In this document: in pieces, positions 24,201-64,000 of the stretch | Position numbering within the stretch: position 1 is the stretch's first letter | How the letters are laid out: the number at the start of each line of letters is the position of its first letter | Assembly: GCA_019096065.1 (NCBI GenBank) | Contig: JAGUCH010000006.1 | Coordinates: 3,616,001-3,680,000, forward strand | Direction of reading: 5' to 3' | Origin: Paracyclopina nana | Lineage: Eukaryota; Arthropoda; Copepoda; Cyclopoida; Cyclopettidae | DNA: 64,000 nt | Made by a program: the position numbers and the translations under genes | Notes under the pieces: generated by a model | Told to the model about the DNA's origin: nothing | What the model saw: only the letters and a program-made list of their open reading frames with translations | The model's database searches: none

Positions 24201-27200
24201 ATCCCGGAGGAAGCAGCCAGCTCGGCCTCATTACAGAAGCTAATGTATACCAACTCCTCTTATATGGCCAATTATTGCAAATGCCCACAGTTGTCCTGCA
24301 ATGCAAGGCCTTTTTGGCCAAATTGGAGGCCAAAAAACCTGATGAGGCTGCAAGAGTGGAAGTTCAGGCGAGGCCAGTGAGCAGCACAGTGGTGAGGCCG
24401 ATACCTAGTAAAATTCAGCCCTCTGCTAATAATGGCCAACTGTGGAAGCCGTGGCTGCAGTATTCGGCAACTCTGTATCAAGATTGGCTCACTCGGTTGG
24501 CCTTTAACGTGACAAGTGGAAATAATTCATCGAAATGCAACAAAGAGGCAAATTTCAAGCCCCAGGTAGGAACACTGCAATACTAAGCTACCATATTTAT
24601 ACTCAAGACGATATTTCTTTTCAGCCTAGCACAAGCACTGGTAGTAATAATTCCTCCATATCGCAGCCAAATAATAACAGTAACGGCAAAAAGGCGAAAA
24701 AGACCTTTGAGGACGACGAGCGTTGCGTGGAGCTCGGTGCAGAAAATAAAGCTACAACAGGAATTGACGAAAAAGTAGCTCAACTTGATTTGGCTGCATG
24801 CGATGGCCCCATTAGATTTCACCGCATTTTAAACCCTGTTCTGACCTCTGACAACGATGACAGCAACGACAATGACAACGTGGACGTCGTCGGCAGTTCT
24901 GGCAGCGACCAGGAGGAGTCCAAGTCATCTTTTCCCCGGTCGGAAAACTCCTCAACTGTAGGCAATAACACGTACAAATGCCTCTTTTGCAACCACATCT
25001 TCAAGTCTCACTACTGCTACCAAAAGCACAAGAGGAGGCATTTGAATCCCTTCACAGTGGACTTTGCCACCACTGAGGAGCTAGCCGTGAAAAAGAAGCC
25101 AGATGTCCCGTTAGCCCCATCCACCATTTTGAAGGATATCAATGTGCAGTTTTTCCCCTGCAAGATTTGCGGAGCCAAATTCCCCAGCTACTATTTCGTG
25201 CACAAGCACAAGAAAATCTGGCACCCTGAGGCTATCGATCCGGCACCCAGTAGCAATACTTCTTCCACTTCCTCACTTACTAACATTGGGAGTAAATAAA
25301 AAAAATGTCTTACCTGATTGTGGATTATCATCCTCGTCAGACGAGTCGTTCCGCGATTCCTTCTTTACTTTCCTGAAAACGAGAAGAGCAAAAATTGATG
25401 CAGTGAACTCAACATGAGAAGGTTGCGCGATCCAACTTTATCCTTGCGTTAAAAAGGAAACGTAAAAAGAGCAAAGTTAATTCGATCCAACTTACTCATC
25501 ATCATCCTTGGGCTCTTGCTTCACAGTTGGCTGAGGTGTGGACCGGTTAGACCCATCGTATCCATCCCTGCTGTTCTCGTTCTCGTTCTTGTTTCTGTTA
25601 CGAGTGAGCACTCCGCTGGAGGATCCACCTATGATATCATTGGCGGCAGCAGCAGCCGCAGCCGCAGCAGCGGCCGCGGCCGCACTTCCACCCCCGGGTT
25701 GCCTTCTGCGTCCTCGGCCCATTTTGCTCTTGCGAATCATCTGCTTGTAATTCTCGGTCTTTTTGCTCAAGTAGTAGTACTGCACGCAATCCGACACCGT
25801 CTTCCTCTCCAGATTTTGCGCGATCATGCCAAAGTTTTTGGGATGCAGGAGGAATTTCTCCTTGAAGATCTCCTTCTCCGCCTCGGTCCAGGTATTGACA
25901 AATTTCCGCTCGCTGTACTCTTTGAGCGGGTCGAGGATGAGGCCGTTATTGTTGGTGAATTTCCGTTTACGGTCCTCCGGAGGCAATAACAGTGGCGGAA
26001 TGACCGCGAGCGAGTGCATTTTTTTGTCCTCCATTTCTTGCTCTTGCAGTCTCTCGATCACGTCCTCGATGTCGGCCTCGGAGCGAACCGCACCTCGGGT
26101 ACCCAGTCGGTGATCCCGTTCTTTGTCCTCCCTTTGTTTGCGCAGCTCCGGAAAGATCTTTTCGTAGAGCTCGCGAGCTTTGGCATCGCGTTCTTTCCGT
26201 TTGCGCGAATTCTCCACTCGTTCCGCCTTTTTCATCCATGCTGCAGACAACTTCGCATACGTCTCGGTCAAGTACTTTTCACGGGCATCCTTGGCCTCGG
26301 ACTTGCGCCGAAAATGCTCCACGAGGACCTTTTTGAACATGGCATGGCTGCAACGCGAAGATAGCATTGTTTTAATGGAGTCATAATAAAAGTATGCTGA
26401 GCCTTACTTTCTCTTGTTCTTATGATATAGACTAGTGTCCGAGGGCTGATTGTATAAGGGTAGCTCGTTCACAGCGTATTTGTCCAGCATGGAGTGCGCC
26501 AATTTGGCCTTTTTCTGTGAGGACATTCATTTTATATTATTGTTGATACTGCTGCTGTGAATATAATGGAGCTTACCCGATTTTCTGCATAAATGATCTG
26601 AGCTATGCTCAAGTTTTTAGGCTTCTCCTCGTCCTCGTTAGTGTCTGACAGTGGTTTGTTAGCGTGCTCCTCTTGCTCTTGCTGCACATGGAAAGAAAAT
26701 CAGTTCAATAAGAAGAGTACCCCGTCAATGTAACAATCAGTGACTTACATATTTCTTCTTTAGCTTGGCAATCTGCGACTCGGTCTTGGCAATTTCCCGG
26801 TCGACTTTGGTGATTTTCATGAGCAGCTCGTCTTTGACAGCTTTGAGGTCGTCCATTTGGTCTCCGGGGGCCTCTGGACCCGTTGGAGAAATGGCCTCCA
26901 CAGGAGGTTGGTAACACGATTCCTGCAAGGCAAAAGACCAATTTTTCAGGCTGCAGATTCACAAAGGATCCGAGAGTACATATTAGCAGCTTTTACCGCG
27001 TAGACTCTATGAAATATTTGTTTGTTCTCTCTATTCCCTCCTAGATAATGTACTCTTTAGCAGAAACATACGTAAATAAATCTAGAACTAAATCGACATG
27101 ACTGCCAAGCATTGGCCACTCATAGGGTACGACGCTAATAAATAAGCCAGAAATGTGTTTTTCATAAGTCGGATTTCTAAGGTGTGGCTTTTTATGGAAT

Positions 27201-30200: not shown

Positions 30201-33200
30201 AGCTTAGAAACTGGAGGCTGTTGTTGGATCATTTTCGCCAGAAGCCATGGAGAAGAAGAAGGAGGAGGATTTTTTTTTGTTGGCTGGAAGCAAAGAGAAC
30301 GGTCACTTTTTGGAGTCCCAACAAAGTGGGGAGAACGACATTCCCAGCCAGCAAGAATTTGTGGGACACACTGTGCTGCTGCTGCTGCTGCTGCTGCATC
30401 CACGAAATGTTGTTGCATACATTCTACATACACTGACCACGTGGATGTATTCACCAAGAAATGACGACAGGGGGAAAAAGCATAACTAGTTTTATAGCTG
30501 GCCATCATAATCATCCACGTGGTTAAGACCAACTTTTTTCTCCTCTTGCCTCAGCGGGCGCAACTTTTTTTTGGCGCAAAAATGTAGCCAGTCACAAAAG
30601 AAACACTTTCAAGATTTTTCCAGGTCACGTAGACATACGGTAGAAAACGACGCCGCAGTTTCGTTAAACAAAGAGAGCCTCCTCTCAAAATTGTAATATT
30701 ATGCTGCAATGTAGCGTATACACACACGAGCCTGCCATGGAGATAAGAGGTTTACGATGTGCATATACTTGTAAAACTAGCAACTATCGTAGCTTATGAA
30801 GTGGAAGAAAAATCAAAAATTTGTCGCCAAAAGAGATGTCTAGCATTGAATGCAAAGAACTTCTTCCACTTGCCATTCCGCACAAAGCCAAAGAGAATCC
30901 TGACGTTGACGAATAGTGCATTTGAAGACTCGCAGCGCTTTAAATATCTTTAAGCTTCTTCGACATTAGCCGCAAAAAAGGAAGAAGAAGAATGCACGCG
31001 TCTAAAAAATGAGGTCATTGGAGGATGCAAGCGGGGGATTTATGTATTAGCATCCCCGGGGAGTTGTCAGCTGTGCCAGCATCAAATAAAAAGGATGAGA
31101 AAGCAACTATGCAGCTGGGGAAGACATCTGGTTTGTAGAGTTCATCAAAGTTACGCGAATTTCAATCGAAAATGTTGGACTTACCGCCGTGCTCATGTAG
31201 ACCGCAGCATCGCGCACATTACGCAGCCCCGCATACGCCCCCGCAGCTGTGGTGCCGCTGGGAAACGGGACGTACCGGCCCTGCGCGGCCGCAGCCGCGG
31301 CTGCCGCGACAGCTGCGGAGTCAGCTGACGAGAGTCCGCGCTGGGCCAGGCTCGCCGAGGCGGACTGGTAAGCTGACGCGACCGATCGCGCCGGTGAGCT
31401 GCTTCGGCCCAGGGTCAGCGCACTGCTCAAGCTCACCGGAACGCCCACGGGGGAGGGTTGGGGCGTGGTGCGTAATGGCTTGCCAGTCGCGTCCACGAGG
31501 TAGTTTGCCGTCGGGTGTTGCCTGCAAAAAACCAAGCACAGCATAAATGTAGCGAACCATCTGAATCGTTAGGTGGATTTTGCATTCGCGGAAATTGCTA
31601 CAAACTATTTTCACCATTTGGCAGCCAAAAATAGCAAATAATTCAAAAATCGTCCGGCTTTAGCATGAAATTCGGACTGTGGATGCACGTGTGTCACAGT
31701 TTATGTTATCTTCGCGCATCTGCAGCCCTCTTCATTCGATCCCGTATCATGCCGTCATCTTCGAGGGTTGACGGCAGAAGGAAAATTACTGAAAAATGTG
31801 ACGGACAAATGCGCTTCTGGAGCAGCATCAGTTTGGATGCCAAAGGCTTCCGATTGCGTACGGCGAATTCAAAGGATATGGGCGAAATAATGTCTGTGAC
31901 CCCGATTGAGCTATTTGAGCTGCTTTTCACGTTATCTAAGCCGCGTGGAGGAGAAACAGGTCCTCCTCGTGCACAACGACGCTAACAGTGCTCCCCTTCT
32001 GAGTTCCGAGGCGAGCGCACTACGGTAAAAGTGAGAAAAAATGGAGGGGACCGTCTCGCATGCGGGCGCAGAGGGGCGACGTCAAATTGCTCGGCGTTTA
32101 CCGTGGCAGCTCCTAAATCGGACGACGGCAATGCATGAATGCTTTGGGCTGTTCGCAGCAGCAGCAGAGCCCGCGTAGAATGTGTGGCAACGTGAAAATT
32201 TCCAGTTTTTGTACAAACGTGGCTTCGCGCAGCTGAATGGAGGCAAAGAAGGGAAAGGGGAACCGTCTCCCAGGCCGATCTGGAGACTCAAGTCCACGGC
32301 CAAATTGGAAGGAAGAGAAAGCTGCCGCTAGTGCTTTCATTTCGACTTCCAGAGACAAAACTACTAAGAGCCACCAAAGTGGAGAGAGCGGAAAAAGTCC
32401 CTAATGACTGGCACTGACTCATCAAAACGAACAAGAAGGGAGCTGGGGTGGAAAATTCGCGAGCTAAGCCATCGCTTGCGGGCCTTGGAAATGATAATGG
32501 GAAAAAATCGGCAAAATGAATGGGATGACTCAGGCTTCTTCCTAGCTAGCTAAAAGTGACTGGATTGCTTATATCGCATTTCGAATTCCTTTTTTGGTAG
32601 AAACTACCGCAACGGGATTTCTGCGAGGAGATGAAAAGTTTTACGAGGACCAGCCGGACCAATTAAGGAGCCCAAAAAGGCCTAGGCATCCAGCCAACGA
32701 TAATTAACGATGCGTCGGTTTTTTGGGCACTCGCGCTACAACCGAATAAAGAAGGGGAAATAAAAAGTGTACTTGGCGTATGGCTTCTTCTTTTTACGGC
32801 AGTAAACGCGACGACTCCAGCAGTCTGGATTTTCTTTGGCTTGCATTCTGTAAATGGCGCGGGGGACCGTCTCGTAGGCAAACTTCTTTTGTGAGCTGCT
32901 ATGCTGCGAGGAAAGCACTGGCTCTCTCTTTAGTAGTCGCACAAGGCGCGTGAAACGCGAGGTGGGACGCCGTTTCACAGCCAAGGCGCATGAAAGTAGG
33001 CCCACTTTTTGCCCGGCCCATTAATCAGGGGAGGATAAAAAACTCGAGCAACTGCAGCAATCATCGAGGCCCTCAGTTTCAAGTTCAAATGAATCAACAA
33101 AATGGGAAAAAACGCAACGTTCCCAATTATGATTTTTCTGGAAACTTTTTCAAAGTGCAAACTTTACCGTAAGGATTCGCTTGAAACGCTTCGATGCCAA

Positions 33201-34173
33201 TAAAGCGTTATTAGAATCGTTGCGGCATCGTGGCATCAAATATTTTCAGCCTCAATATCGATTTCGAGTGAAGCAACATTTGGGCTTTAAGAGTGGCCAA
33301 AAGATGAAAAAAGCCCGAGCCCGCATTCCCGAAAACCGGCGCGGGAGATTTAAGGCAGCAAAGAAAATGTATTTAGTGGCTTTAGCATGGCAGCGTGGTT
33401 GTGGATTCTCTTACGTATTACAAGTAGGGGGGGACCGTCTCACTCGCTTAATGCTATGCTGTACTAAAGAGGGGCCATAAAATGAACGTAAGAAAAAGCG
33501 AGTGAGAAAGAGAGAGAGAAGAATTCGTGCTATGGTTAACGCTTCGAAGCAAAATGGGCTCAATGTAGAAAGGAGGGTAAAATGGGCGCTTTGGGCTCGT
33601 CCGTGAGTCATTGTTTCATGCCCCTATTAATAGAACGTGTGCGTGAAAACAGCCAATAGATACCGTAAGCGAGTTCACCTTCAAATTGAAGCAGGCTACA
33701 AACAGCTAATAATTTTCCACTTCCTGCCAACATCGAGGACACGATTTTCAGCCAGTTTTCTTGGCTATGAATAATAATTACGTGGGCTTTTGCGTTATGT
33801 GCATTTAATCCTTGAGAACATACAAAGAAGAAGAAGAAGCCATATTGTTGCCTAAGTTAGAGCAAAACTGGGAACAAAAATGCAACGGTGCAGCTAAAAT
33901 GGGCCCACTGAGGGCATTAGCAACAAACTCGCGGTCGGCCTCAAATCCACCAAAAAAAATTGAAGCCATTTCTCACTCTAATTACCTATTCCGCCCACAT
34001 ACAGAATAAACAGACCCTCAAGTAAAAAAAAGGGCGTCACATGCCCCTTACCTAGCGTTCAAGGGCTGATGGCGGGCATAGTAAGCTTGCCCATGGGCCG
34101 GGGCAGCCCCCGCGGGCCCATTGTGGCCCGAGCTGCCCCCCGGCAGCTGCCGTATGTCCGGCCTCGCGGACAT
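18213..34173 (-). CDS. Smr: Nuclear receptor corepressor (NCoR/SMRT/SMRTER family)
   Basis: Sixteen coding exons on the minus strand: 34173-34052, 31521-31185, 30075-29960, 29890-29663, 29162-28892, 26922-26749, 26681-26577, 26514-26408, 26347-25496, 25372-25314, 23067-22774, 22633-22266, 22197-22035, 21975-21824, 21706-19688 and 19409-18213. They total 6564 nt (2187 aa) with consistent phases. Landmarks: KRPRLVDLS near residue 310; a coiled coil (KVDREIAKTESQIAKLKKK); the GPS2-binding/DAD region (SIAQIIYAENRKKA, ELPLYNQPSDTSLYH); SANT1 (about 636-685, FKEKFLLHPKNFGMIA); a poly-Ala run; a Cys-rich insert; SANT2 (about 953-1005, NGRNWAVIAHKL); CoRNR-type motifs MINVIEKSL (about 1226) and VIDAIITQSI (about 1865); and the terminal YEPLSDDE. 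It is a nuclear scaffold that recruits HDAC3-type complexes to unliganded nuclear receptors. The ATG follows an in-frame TGA upstream, supporting the start. Confidence 0.93.
23957..25299 (+). CDS. BTB/POZ protein with two C2H2 zinc fingers, nested in an NCoR intron
   Basis: Two exons, 23957-24565 and 24625-25299 (phase 0, CCCAG|GTAGGA and TTTTCAG), give 427 aa. A BTB domain covers residues about 18-125 (HLIDVVIYAEGRAFPANKAI, LAQHSGYFRTVF, IVLPTVPAEYFGLLLAFI, VYQLLLYGQLLQMPTVVLQC). A Ser/Asn/Asp-rich linker follows, then two C2H2 fingers: CLFCNHIF...H..RRH and CKICGAKF...H..IWH. The layout matches arthropod BTB-ZF transcription factors, usually DNA-binding repressors acting as BTB dimers. I cannot name an ortholog. 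It lies wholly within the 2.2-kb intron between NCoR exons 25372-25314 and 23067-22774, on the opposite strand. AATAAA overlaps its stop codon, and its end is 14 bp from the host exon. Confidence 0.85.
26995..30114. promoter_or_regulatory. Three copies of ACCGCGTAGACTC in NCoR introns
   Basis: Identical 13-mers occur at 26995-27007, 27520-27532 and 30101-30113, all on the plus strand. A partial copy (CCCGCGTAGA) is near 32170. All are intronic. Three exact copies in 3.1 kb are not expected by chance, but no function is known to me. Confidence 0.45.
29407..29427. repeat. (TG)n microsatellite in an NCoR intron
   Basis: Ten uninterrupted TG units lie in the intron upstream of the 29162-28892 exon. 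A second simple run, (CTG)8, is at about 30373-30398, also intronic. Confidence 0.9.
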
Positions 34174-36188
34174 GTGTGGTTTGCCGATAAAGTGGTTGGA
34201 GGTGGTGGTCGGAGTGGTCGGGGTGGTTCAGCCCGATTTTCGCCTCATGCTCGAGCCGGTTAATTTTCTCGCGTTGTTTACTCGTCTCTCCTCCACTGGA
34301 CCACTGTGAACTAGTTGAAAATCTGGACTCGGTCCCCCTGCAGCCGAGCGCACGCGCGTGCATCGAGGAATGAGCTCGCGCGCGCGCGGTTGAGTGCGAG
34401 CGCGCGAGCGGCCAATCAAGAGGCCGCCAAATCCGCCGAAAATCCTCGAGGCAACAAAACTGGTCCCGGCCAGCTTTCCGCGCGCGCCCGCACGACAATC
34501 CTCTATTGAGCCAACTTCAAAAAAGGCCTGCAAGGTGCAGTTTCCGAAAGGTGGAGTCGTTCCGGCTTCCAAGGTTCAGTGCAACAAAAAGGTGGAGCTG
34601 GAAGGCAAAGCTCGGCTTTTTTTAATCATGGCTGAGGAAACATGCCATCCTTTGGATGAATGCTGATAGCGAGCTACTTCTGTTCTACTTTTTGCATCCG
34701 CGGATGTGACTCAATTTGACTGCCAAATCTGAGCGAGAAATTGCAACAAAGAGCCTTGGTCGCGAGGATGGTTTTTTTTAAAGTACCACGGCAACGTTTA
34801 ATTGCGGCGCTTCTGGTTTGCCTTTGAAAGCTTTTTCTGCTTTCCTGAACTCGTAGTGGTTGCGTAATGCGCCAGCGCTTTTGAAAGCTTCCTTTTGAAG
34901 CTTCTTTTTACGTCTGGGTTTGCATTTTGCGGGTTCAGGCGCGGACCCAGAGGAAAAAAGGCTTGGGAGCCTTCGCTAATGAACGGGAACTTTCAGCCTC
35001 TTTCGGGGAACGCGAGGTTATTTTTTATTATGGTGATCGGTCCTTCAAGGGCTTCATGCATAAATTAGGCTAAAAGCGACGGGAGGAAGCCCTTGCAAAA
35101 AAAGGGACATTTTTAGAAAAGAAAAAGACGCAAAATGAAAGCGGGAAGGATGGCAAAAGCCAGAAGGCGGCAAGGAAGGCTCACTATTAAGCCTTGAAAA
35201 ATTCAGGATGCACTTAAAAAAGGTGAGAGAGCCGTTCTAATAATATAAAAACGAGGATGCCACTTGTCAGGCTACGATTGCGCGGCATTTCCGTTCCACG
35301 ATTAACGTACTCTTTGTTTCAAAAGCTGTATGAGCGAAGCAATCCAAGGAGTTGAGTTGGTTCATGCCGCGCGTCGATCTTTTTAATAAATAATGGTTAC
35401 GATTGCCCGGAGCATTGTTCATCAATCATTCTAATTTATCATTTAATCCGCTGCAGTGGCAAGCCCGAAACCGAATCAAGCCATACACTTCATTGATACT
35501 TCCAAAGTGAAGAGTCTTCATAGGGACATGGCACCGAAAAACGAAGAAATGATGGCGTCAGAACGGCAAATCCCTCGGGGACGTTAGTTCGACTGCGGGT
35601 GCAAACAACCTCGCGATAATTGCTTTTCTAATGGAGCAAGAAGAAGCAAAAGTGCGGTTCAATCCATCCAGATGCGTATCGGGCATCGGCAATGAAAAAA
35701 AAACGAGCGCGTCCCATTTAAAAATCCAATCGCGTCAAAATGCAAAAGTCAACAACGACAACAAAAAAGTCATCAGCTAAACCGCGAGTCGCTCGCGCGC
35801 TTAGGTAATAAAGTTTTTAGGTCGTCGAACGCGACGTTTTCGTCATTACTGCAAAACAATTCGGATCAAGGCGAACCAGGGGAGATGACGCTGATAAGGC
35901 ACAAAAAAGTGGAAAAAAAAGAGAATCGTCATTTTGCATGAGGGGGTGTCCGCCTTCCTCCCCCCGCGTTGAGGCCAAATGGACTCGCCCCACGTTGCGC
36001 GAGCGGAGAAGCACGAACAGGTTCCGGGGGAGGACGAGTCCAAGTTGGCGGCCTCGGGGGAGGAAGGACGAGACGGTCCCCCCTCTTTTGGCCAGGGCTT
36101 AGCAGTTCGAACGAACTCGCTCCAACTCTCGCGCCTTCCGAGCTCAGCAAAACGAAACGAACGAACAATCACACGGGGACCGTCTCGC
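32046..36188. promoter_or_regulatory. Cluster of six GGGACCGTCTC-like motifs around the NCoR 5' end
   Basis: Copies lie at 32046-32059 (+), 32257-32270 (+, one extra A), 32861-32874 (+), 33430-33443 (+), 36070-36083 (-) and 36175-36188 (+). Four are in the first intron and two upstream of the first coding exon (34173-34052). Flanks differ, so this is not a recent duplicated block. I noticed no copy elsewhere in the window. A sequence-specific binding site is the simplest reading; the factor is unknown. Confidence 0.5.
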
Positions 36189-36300
36189 GGCCACACTTCA
36201 CGCACGACGTCCACGCACGCTGGGAAAAAGCGGAGAAAAAAAATCGGCCCCACTGTGAACCTTTTCTCGGCTGCGGCTTCGCTTCGATTCATCTATGCCT
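34174..36300. promoter_or_regulatory. CpG-rich 5' region of NCoR
   Basis: The sequence upstream of the NCoR ATG is much richer in CG dinucleotides than the surroundings, with runs such as GCTCGCGCGCGCGCGG at about 34372-34389 and further CG-rich patches to 36250. There is no TATA box at an obvious position. It probably holds the promoter and 5' UTR. Frames on both strands here are by-products of the GC content. Confidence 0.45.
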
Positions 36301-60881: not shown

Positions 60882-62548
60882 ACCAACAAGTCTAGAAATA
60901 CATATGAAGTATAGTGTACTGAATAATTGATGGGCAGAAAATGAGCACTCATGCTACCAATTTTAAGAAGCTGTATACAGCATCATGATTTATATTTACT
61001 TGCGATATGGTAACTTGTCGTTTTTTTGCCTCATCGTGCGCAACAAAGTTGCAGAATCGTTTCAGCTCAACTCACACAAAATGCATTTGGCGCAAAAAAT
61101 AAAGTGCAACCATTCGATTCAAGCTTTTAGGAGACTCCTTTTTCAAAATCTGGTGAAGCCTAAACTAAATTGCCAAGAGACATTCAATTTGGACGCAATG
61201 GCCTGAGGAAGAAGTATATCGGGTTACGTAATGTGCTTGATCAGAGCGCTATCCTTTTATCGGGGATCCAAATCCCAGAAATCTGCACTTGCAAGACGTT
61301 TTTCACTTCAAACGGCTAAAGATTCAGTTTCCGATAAAACATGTGCCGAAAACTTTACTCTGATTCCAGCTGCCAAAACTTGGTCAAAAAGAAGTTCCGA
61401 AACTTTAAACGGTGAAACTTTCTCATCGCACTTCATCAAACGGCAAGAAATGCGGAAGTTTTTCTTTCTCCACTCTTCCAAATTGCGCAAAACAACCATC
61501 GAGGTTGGGTGATGACCGCGACTCTTGTTCCGTTAAGTAAGTAAGTTATTATAGGTCGACTGGATATAACCTAACCTAACCTAACCTAACCTAACCTTAT
61601 AATATCCAGTCGACCTAGTTAATTATCTAAGAATGCTTCATTTGAAAGCATTTTCAGAGTCCCTCAAAAGTCCCCATATTTTCATCTGAAGTTGGAAGAA
61701 TCGATAAGTAACGATTCATCTTGTTTTCGCAGGAATTCAAGAATTGGAAACTTTAGTATCGCAAATTCGCTATAATCTAAGCTGCGGCAGTTTTCGGATA
61801 GGTGAACTGAAAATCAATTTCAGATCGGCTGCTAGGACCTTTTAATTGTTTTTCACCAGGCCGGGCTTAATGGGGGCTTTGCAGACAAGCGTAGAGAATT
61901 TATGATCTGCCATTATAAAAGTTTAAGTGTAGCCAGATTCGAAGCTTTTAAAATGTTTAACCCGAAATTAAACAAGGAGAAGAATTTAATGCGCTAGCTC
62001 TGATCAAGTTTTCATGGTTTATATTAGCCCTTTCATTGCTAGCCGTCTCTGCTACCTCTCAATGAGCTCTGTTTGAAAGGAAAGTCGCGCGTCCATGGCT
62101 TTCAGTAGTAATTCGGTTTTCAGGGCAACAACAATTGCAATATACTATAAAGGAAGTGGGTGAGAAAATAGCTGTTGTACCAAAAAAGCTCAGCTAACTT
62201 GCTGATTCGATTAATATTTTAAATTGCCATTTTCATTTTGAAAAATTGATCACTTTACAGCTGCCTATTATTACAGTCAAAGGTCGTTCGTAGTTCAATA
62301 AGTTTTGATTTATCGATGTCACTGACAAGAAAGAAAACCTGATTGAGCGTGAGATTTCATGCGAATTATTTTCTCTATTCGAAGGACTGTTCAGAAATAA
62401 GGAATAGACGGCAAAAGCTACTGAGGAGACGCCCACATCTTCTCAGGAAGACATCATTTATGGGTAGGACCTTTAACAAAACCCAAATGTGAAAGCCATG
62501 TAGCACTTGACGCTGTTAGCCCTCTTTTTGTGGAAAAATCTCCTGAAA
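60882..62548. other. Intergenic, with a telomere-repeat cassette
   Basis: No gene recognised. The only structured item is the 61553-61616 cassette. Confidence 0.4.
61553..61616. repeat. Interstitial (AACCT)6 telomeric repeat framed by 15-bp perfect inverted repeats
   Basis: AGGTCGACTGGATAT (61553-61567) and its exact complement ATATCCAGTCGACCT (61602-61616) flank six perfect AACCT units (61568-61597) plus TATA. AACCT/AGGTT is the TTAGG repeat in another register, the usual arthropod telomere sequence. The whole unit is 64 bp. Confidence 0.9.
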
Positions 62549-62603: not shown

Positions 62604-62723
62604 GTGAGCTATCTCCTCTTATTTCCTTCACAATTAATAAAGAAGAGCCAATTCTTTTTATGCACAAGTCGAAGAAAGTTTCTGGCTCACAATCAATTGA
62701 GGAAAACTCCGCTCTATTGATAT

Positions 62724-63722
62724 ATAGATCACAAAGATCATAAAGATCGTAAAGATCACTGATCTTTGTGATCTATAAATGGACATTTTTTGTTAATACT
62801 TAGATTATAGTGGTGGACGCGCTAGCAAAGTGATCTATGTATGGACATTTTCTATTTACAGAAAACAGAGATTCATATTTAGATCACAGTCAGTGTTTAT
62901 GATCTGCACATTTTTTTCAAAAGTCTAGGGTAAACTAAGGCCTTGTTCACCTGCAATAATATTAACAAAATTAGGTGCGACATAATCTAATATTTGCAAA
63001 TATGTGGTACTTATAAAATCATTTTTCAGATTTTGACTTCGGAATTGGTCTTTTCCTATCAAAAGCCATCCAACACCAACATTAAAATTCTCAGTGTTTC
63101 AGTATTTCTCTCCAGTATTTTGACAAAATAACAGCCATAATATGCAAGTGAACAGGCCCTTAATTGATTTATTTGAAAAGGCAGACTATTTCTCTGTTGG
63201 CTCTGGGATATTTTACTCATTTTATTTTACATAGTTTGGTAAGGGAACAGGGTATTTAGCGCTCAGGTTGATGTGAGTTGCAATAAAAAAGAAAGGAACT
63301 AAAAGCCAACTAATACTGTATGAAATTGAAATTGCTCTTTGGCATTTTGTCTCCACTGTTCTGAAAGACTGAGTTTATGAAAAATATTAGTAATATTGAC
63401 ACCATTTTGATTTAAGACAGAATAATATTGCATTCTTCAGTCAAGTCTTGCATTTTTAAATAAATCAATGTAGCTTATCCTAGGCTAAGTAAAAAGCTGT
63501 GTAGAGTCTTCAATTAATGATCTTAAAAGGACCACTTATAGATCATAAACACTGATTGTGATCTAATTATGAATATCAGTTTTCACTAGCTAGAAAATGT
63601 CCATATATAGATAAGCTTAGCTAGCGCGTCTACCACAGTGATCTAAATATTTACAAAAAATGTCCATTTATAGATCACAAAGATCAGTGATCTTTACGAT
63701 CTTTATGATCTTTGAGATCTAT
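62724..63722. mobile_element. 1-kb non-autonomous DNA transposon with about 185-bp terminal inverted repeats
   Basis: Left arm about 62724-62908 and right arm about 63535-63722 are inverted copies at close to 90 percent identity by eye. Shared landmarks include AAAGATCATAAAGATCGTAA, CTGATCTTTGTGATCTATAA, ATGGACATTTTTTGT and GACGCGCTAGC. The ends are themselves short GATC-centred repeats that can fold back. The roughly 620-bp interior is AT-rich with no transposase frame. The immediate flanks (TTGATAT / GTATGG) give no clear target duplication. Confidence 0.85.
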
Positions 63723-64000
63723 GTATGGATGGAGCCGGAAAACTCATTTTACACCTTTTTCCAACTCTGAAAGTGTTTGCACTTCCAATCTGATTGCAGT
63801 TCACAATCTCAAAATCAAATCTTTTAGCAGAAAAAACATAAAAAGCAGTTTCAAAGGCTGAACCGACAAAAAAAAGAAGCATAAATAGAGCAACTGGTTT
63901 TTGGGGGTGCTTAAAAAACTTTTTTTCTGCAATGGCAACATGCAACTGCTGTAATATCTAGTTTGCATTTTAGCCACTTATGCATCCGTCTCGGCAACTT

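Follow-up and report, generated by a model that had tools for sequence, protein, structure and literature searches.

A putative homotypic cluster of binding sites around the 5' end of an NCoR gene in the copepod Paracyclopina nana

Homotypic clusters of transcription factor sites occur in the promoters and first introns of animal genes. Other recurrent DNA words of regulatory function include the Drosophila motif 1 or M1BP core-promoter element, YGGTCACACTR, and the sites of insulator proteins, which number in the thousands in a genome; the central word of one such protein, Su(Hw), is TGCATACTT. The Su(Hw) site spans ~26 nt and comprises three modules, a CG-rich and an AT-rich one among them (PMC5825117), and the protein has been reported in chelicerates, crustaceans and myriapods (PMC5094011). 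Here we analyze a 64-kb window of the Paracyclopina nana genome (C6:3616001-3680000), in which a GC-rich word recurs around the 5' end of a gene for the nuclear receptor corepressor NCoR; searches covered the whole assembly, 91.95 Mb in 10 contigs. Judging from sequence, the seven sites found at this locus probably make up a homotypic cluster of candidate binding sites for one sequence-specific DNA-binding protein, distributed over the upstream region, the predicted 5' untranslated region (UTR) and the predicted intron 1 of NCoR.

The gene is assigned to NCoR, on the minus strand, by its frame at 25492-26403 (-), which contains a Myb/SANT domain and resembles nuclear receptor corepressor 2 over the SANT region (E 2.4e-33); the exon and intron structure of the gene is a prediction from sequence alone. 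An earlier note on this stretch had described six copies of an 11-nt word around the first coding exon, one of them reversed, and none elsewhere in the 64 kb. The search bears this out: GGGACCGTCTC occurs exactly at 32047, 32863, 33431 and 36176 on the plus strand and at 36070 on the minus strand, one single-mismatch match, GGAACCGTCTC, lies at 32259 (+), and the window contains no further match with at most one mismatch. Together, these six matches span 32046-36186. What had been taken for an extra A in the variant copy is a G-to-A change, GGGAACCGTCTC against GGGGACCGTCTC, with no insertion, and the tally of six had overlooked a seventh, variant site, GGGGACCGAGTC at 34326-34337 (-), which lies ~150 nt before the predicted NCoR ATG. 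Since G precedes all five exact copies, the unit is the 12-mer GGGGACCGTCTC; genome-wide, 21 of the 25 copies of the 11-mer are likewise preceded by G. With five copies in 4.2 kb, GGGGACCGTCTC is the most locally clustered 12-mer of the window outside low-complexity sequence, and no other such 12-mer clusters in this way except a shifted form of GGGGACCGTCTC itself. When two mismatches are allowed, the window holds 11 matches to GGGACCGTCTC, against a mean of 5.24 in shuffled sequence, and 11 were reached in one of 100 shuffles. A 25-nt profile was built from 16 sites, including the seven of the window, whose match to it is therefore by construction; it finds these seven at E < 0.5 and nothing else in the window below E 5.

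The surrounding 4.4 kb (31900-36300) have a single match in the genome, namely themselves, and the NCoR region is therefore not a repeat. Within it, the local density of the 12-mer is far above what its frequency elsewhere can account for, with five copies observed in 4141 bp and ~0.0007 expected from the genome density of the remaining 16. Exact GGGGACCGTCTC is found 21 times in the genome, as opposed to 4 times for the reversed control, and its 36 one-mismatch neighbors total 45 copies, or 1.25 per word. The 21 copies comprise the five at NCoR, nine in one retroelement family, a pair at C2:13385k and five singles, and all four genome copies of the 13-mer GGGGACCGTCTCG, that is, GGGGACCGTCTC with a final G, are at NCoR. 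Uniform scattering of the 11-mer, a possibility raised in the earlier note, does not describe its distribution either: 5 of 25 genome copies fall within the 4.1 kb at NCoR. Once the nine copies in the repeat family and four judged to be coding are set aside, 10 of the 12 remaining exact 11-mers belong to the NCoR cluster or to paired clusters at other loci. Altogether, ~26 sites were found in the genome, seven at NCoR, eight in pairs, nine in the repeat and two single. As a separate observation, a relative of the core, GGGGACCGGATC, made up 17 of the 57 matches in one genome search (e.g. C1:591696, C2:3487279 and C2:12441928). At five of these 17, GGAGTCCGATGC lies ~2.5 kb away, and GGGGACCGGATC therefore probably belongs to another dispersed repeat.

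Four further loci carry two sites each, spaced 60-142 bp apart and always in direct orientation. For the two pairs on C2 and the one on C1, three pairs in all, the number expected within 150 bp is 0.004, an estimate based on 50 of 66 matches after exclusion of 6 NCoR and 10 repeat-family matches. A composition-matched control word yielded no pair closer than 1.2 kb among its 82 matches, all of them listed, and for another control word the 100 matches listed, out of 288, include no pair within 500 bp. The fourth pair, on C6, consists of GGGGGACCGAGTCC at C6:2605760 and AGGGACCGTCTCG 110 bp away; the 14-mer GGGGGACCGAGTCC has just two copies in the genome, this one and site G of NCoR (Table 1), each at a motif cluster. 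A Pfam search of the frame next to the C6 pair gave no match. The pair at C2:13384946/13385006 precedes a CENP-I (Mis6) frame by ~1.1 kb, and an adjoining frame without Pfam match starts 0.5-0.6 kb away; these frames and the YEATS/AHD frame are all on the minus strand. The C1:5782506/5782575 pair is placed in a predicted intron because the GH20 frame begins inside the domain.

In a subset of sites the candidate element is longer than the 12-mer. A second block, N4-G[CA]A[CA]ACTT, follows the core exactly at site C (32862) and at C2:7541966, C2:13385006 and C1:5782575, and with one change at site F and at C6:2605872. The 3' flanks (13 nt) of 15 sites, a set without the two GAGTC variants, the four loci judged coding and the copies in the repeat, contain 5.4 bits of information; in 20,000 draws from the null the mean was 2.0 and the highest value 4.7. 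Six matches to the long motif with no or one mismatch stand out, and all six are at cluster loci. The absence of common flanks, which the earlier note had reported, thus holds at the scale of a duplicated segment and fails for this block, shared by some of the sites. Similarly, its proposal of a conserved 11-nt word serving as a binding site is sustained by the single-copy context at NCoR and by the pairs at four other loci, and has to be amended as to length, the word extending over 12 nt and being followed by the second block in 6 of 15 sites. Individual sites have further peculiarities. The 12-mer of site B, GGGAACCGTCTC, is a single copy in the genome listing; at site D, the ACTCGCTT that follows the core is seen also in several retroelement copies, there 4 nt further off; and sites E and F make an inverted pair whose 13-nt arms are separated by 93 nt.

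Table 1. Motif sites, predicted parts of the NCoR gene (window positions) and paired sites elsewhere (contig:position)
Feature	Position	Strand	Description
Site A	32046..32070	+	GGGGACCGTCTC then G; predicted NCoR intron 1; NCoR sense strand reads GAGACGGTCCCC
Site B	32258..32282	+	GGGAACCGTCTC, one change; predicted NCoR intron 1
Site C	32862..32886	+	GGGGACCGTCTCGTAGGCAAACTTC, core and complete second block; predicted NCoR intron 1
Site D	33430..33454	+	GGGGACCGTCTCACTCGCTTAATGC; predicted NCoR intron 1
Site G	34325..34338	-	Variant 14-mer GGGGGACCGAGTCC; ~150 nt upstream of predicted NCoR ATG
Site E	36066..36081	-	GGGGACCGTCTCG; ~1.9 kb upstream of predicted NCoR ATG; orientation reversed
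Site F	36175..36199	+	GGGGACCGTCTCGCGGCCACACTTC, core and second block with one change; ~2 kb upstream of predicted NCoR ATG
NCoR frame with SANT/Myb domain	25492..26403	-	Domain and family match
Predicted NCoR first coding exon	34052..34173	-	ATG 34171-34173, GTAAGG donor 34046-34051; read from sequence
Predicted NCoR intron 1	31522..34051	-	Holds sites A-D; acceptor TTTTTTGCAG before exon starting at 31521; read from sequence
Pair	C2:13384946/13385006		60 bp apart; 0.1-0.2 kb past stop of YEATS/AHD frame
Pair	C2:7541824/7541966		142 bp apart; just beyond LIM/bMERB (MICAL-like) frame, predicted intron
Pair	C1:5782506/5782575		69 bp apart; ~0.3-0.4 kb before GH20 hexosaminidase frame
Pair	C6:2605761/2605871		110 bp apart; 0.4-0.5 kb past stop of minus-strand frame

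The nine 12-mers assigned to a repeat deserve separate treatment. The earlier note had also considered that the copies might be part of a dispersed repeat; this does not apply to the NCoR locus, and it does apply to these 9 of the 21 genome copies, all from one family. Eight of the copies match over ~3 kb and the ninth over shorter stretches, with identities of 72-99%, and one copy encodes an integrase with DUF5641, a combination typical of BEL/Pao elements. Here the word reads GAGACGGTCCCC and is situated between a TATA box, TATATAAAG, and an initiator-like sequence, ATCAGTCC or ATCATTCC, some tens of bases upstream of the ATG of a second open frame. A 531-base piece of the family has 17 matches in the genome, of which 14 were aligned after exclusion of three short ones (at most 204 bases). 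Five of these 14 copies have TATAAAAAG, or a close form of it, and ATCATTCC, with different letters in between, so that the word is optional in the element. The replacement of the block between TATA box and initiator separates two BEL/Pao-like subfamilies (L086-L090 versus L023, L024, L032-L034, L036 and L043-L045). Because the nine copies share one origin, the presence of the word in the retroelement could be a coincidence, a single chance event, and for this reason, together with the five copies that do without the block, the retroelement is not used here as strong evidence.

What is observed, then, is a word that clusters in single-copy sequence at NCoR, forms pairs at four other loci and is followed by a second block in a subset of sites. 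A homotypic cluster of binding sites fits these observations in two respects: the local density is far above that expected by chance and that of control words, and neither duplication nor a repeat explains the copies, given the single-copy 4.4 kb and the differing flanks. The element recognised would be long, consisting of the near-invariant GGGGACCGTCTC and, in some sites, four free bases and G[CA]A[CA]ACTT, a shape that would suit a protein with many C2H2 zinc fingers; the protein is thus described here as probably many-fingered. Several copies of it, bound across 4 kb, might raise or lower NCoR transcription, and the cluster may serve as an enhancer, a silencer or an insulator. We infer all three of these elements, the binding of a protein, its zinc-finger type and its regulation of NCoR. 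A bolder scheme adds to them a lineage-specific many-fingered protein with some five gene targets, NCoR being the main one, that plausibly exerts feedback by recruiting NCoR, and whose site was independently adopted by the internal promoter of the BEL/Pao-like element, in the interval between TATA box and initiator; taken as a whole, this scheme seems to us rather unlikely.

Several results weigh against a cluster of binding sites. The total count of the 11-mer shows no excess (25 copies versus 26 for the reversed control), outside NCoR and the retroelement the word is at background (11 copies versus 9.7 per neighbor word), and when one mismatch is allowed, the reversed words outnumber the word itself. 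Moreover, 4 of the 11 exact 11-mers outside NCoR and the repeat are in open frames judged to be coding. This check covered 11 of the 25 exact loci, the nine repeat and five NCoR copies being excluded, and the four (L022, L025, L029 and L035, with frames of 140-578 aa) were called coding on visual inspection, not by a family search; open frames are present also at L037 (133 aa) and L046 (111 aa), which were treated as non-coding. A probability of 0.0009 obtained for six separate exact GGGGACCGTCTC loci outside NCoR and the repeat is not relied on, because three of the six were later judged coding. The second block, even with one change allowed, is present in just 6 of 15 sites, and among the seven NCoR sites in C and F only, and with up to three mismatches the long motif has 53 genome matches versus 58 for its control. 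Both the pairs and the second block were spotted before testing, which makes their probabilities post hoc. Finally, the same-strand bias at the four other loci is not what a plain binding site predicts.

This strand bias is the sole support favoring an element that acts at the RNA level, with GAGACGGTCCC serving in the transcript, and not as DNA, as the target of a protein or small RNA in introns and UTRs. Both copies at all four paired loci read GAGACGGTCCC, or a variant, in the direction of the frame that overlaps or adjoins them, although at the C6 locus the strand of the gene rests on a frame without Pfam match. Predicted introns hold two of the paired loci (MICAL-like and GH20), the other two follow a stop codon at a distance of 0.1-0.5 kb, and five of the seven NCoR sites, including all four of predicted intron 1, are on the NCoR strand. 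Sites E and G, however, have the opposite orientation, sites E and F are upstream of the predicted first coding exon, and the z values of 26 folds (13 sites, both strands) range from -1.9 to 1.1, which is nothing unusual. We regard an RNA-level element as unlikely, a weaker reading than that of binding sites. A search of the window for Rfam families at gathering score, and for tRNAs with bacterial settings, returned none.

An insulator or boundary element that shields NCoR from its neighbors, bound by an arthropod zinc-finger protein of the Su(Hw) or CTCF kind, would agree with a long compound site in which a GC-rich part is accompanied, though not everywhere, by a GCAnACTT-like one. It agrees less well with the scarcity of the sites, ~26 in the genome and not thousands, with their position within and in front of a gene, and with an invariant GGGGACCGTCTC that is not known to be part of any Su(Hw) or CTCF consensus; an insulator, although a lead, appears quite improbable. 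Remnants of transposable elements, such as terminal or promoter fragments of the BEL/Pao-like family, could be suspected on account of the 12-mers found in that integrase-encoding family and of the inverted arrangement of sites E and F. Yet the NCoR sites share with the family no long flank beyond the core, the four pairs elsewhere are direct and none is inverted, and the block is replaced in 5 of the 14 aligned copies. A repeat origin of the NCoR sites is rejected on the evidence of the surrounding 4.4 kb, which are not repeated in the genome; remnants of this kind, largely refuted by that result, are very unlikely. Lastly, a GC-rich word might recur by chance in a promoter region that is itself rich in GC. 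The NCoR 5' region does have a GC content of 45-50%, above that of the window flanks, and, away from NCoR and the repeat, the 11-mer by itself does not rise above background; nonetheless, five 12-mers where 0.0007 are expected, and the absence from the window of any other comparably clustered 12-mer outside low-complexity sequence, save its own shifted form, leave mere chance scarcely credible, and as an account of the whole cluster it is refuted by that density.

Other repeats were encountered in the course of the searches. In a genome-search listing, GTGACAGTCTCTACATAACACTT has nine occurrences, six of them as three inverted pairs ~20.8 kb apart (C3:1717358-1738137, C7:4630188-4650970 and C9:2261043-2281835); these resemble the termini of a large DNA transposon in the size range of Maverick/Polinton elements. 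Within the window, 62711-63735 contains inverted repeats of 120 nt (90% complementary) and 73 nt (88%) with AGATCA-type subrepeats, and is like a non-autonomous DNA transposon. At 61567-61597, away from a contig end, there are six copies of TAACC, the arthropod telomere word.

If the homotypic cluster is real, sequence alone yields both a list of targets and a ready probe for a DNA-binding protein in an arthropod, and the main target of this protein would be a chromatin corepressor, turning the control of NCoR dosage into a directly testable question. The retroelement promoter would, in turn, offer a natural comparison of copies with and without the word. To our knowledge, GGGGACCGTCTC matches no binding motif that can be named. 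Among the papers listed in a full-text search for the word or its parts, considered by their titles and the beginnings of their abstracts, none concerns a regulatory motif, and no title among those listed refers to a homotypic cluster at NCoR or to NCoR autoregulation. A homotypic cluster is a known kind of arrangement, and it appears that the word itself is unreported as a regulatory site within the literature searched.

Among the described systems, Su(Hw) and the gypsy insulator resemble this one in the long compound site, here proposed to be that of a many-fingered protein, in a retroelement that carries copies of a word also present at host genes, and in the GCAnACTT-like block of some sites. 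A length similar to the ~26 nt of the Su(Hw) site and a GC-rich part are also seen here, a likeness in size and composition that decides nothing as to membership. The likeness ends with the consensus: we know of no Su(Hw) or CTCF consensus of which GGGGACCGTCTC is part, and the invariant half of the element is not known to be related to the Su(Hw) consensus. The GCAnACTT-like block is present in 6 of 15 sites and has T as its fourth letter in none of the six. As the central word is not found in most sites, the sites are not assigned to Su(Hw), and membership in that system is not accepted. The few sites counted here differ from the thousands of Su(Hw), and in the retroelement the word stands between a TATA box and an initiator-like sequence, unlike the 12-site array of gypsy. 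Motif 1/M1BP is approached by site F, which reads GGCCACACTT, and by the sites at C1:5782575 and C6:2605872, which read GCACACT, but these are a minority of the sites and have no tie to a known start site. The resemblance to homotypic clusters is seen in the several copies of the word within a few kb of a gene start, with mixed spacing, in their single-copy flanks and in the weak variants that stand beside strong sites, whereas the NCoR cluster is set apart by a word that is long, near-invariant and confined to few loci in the genome.

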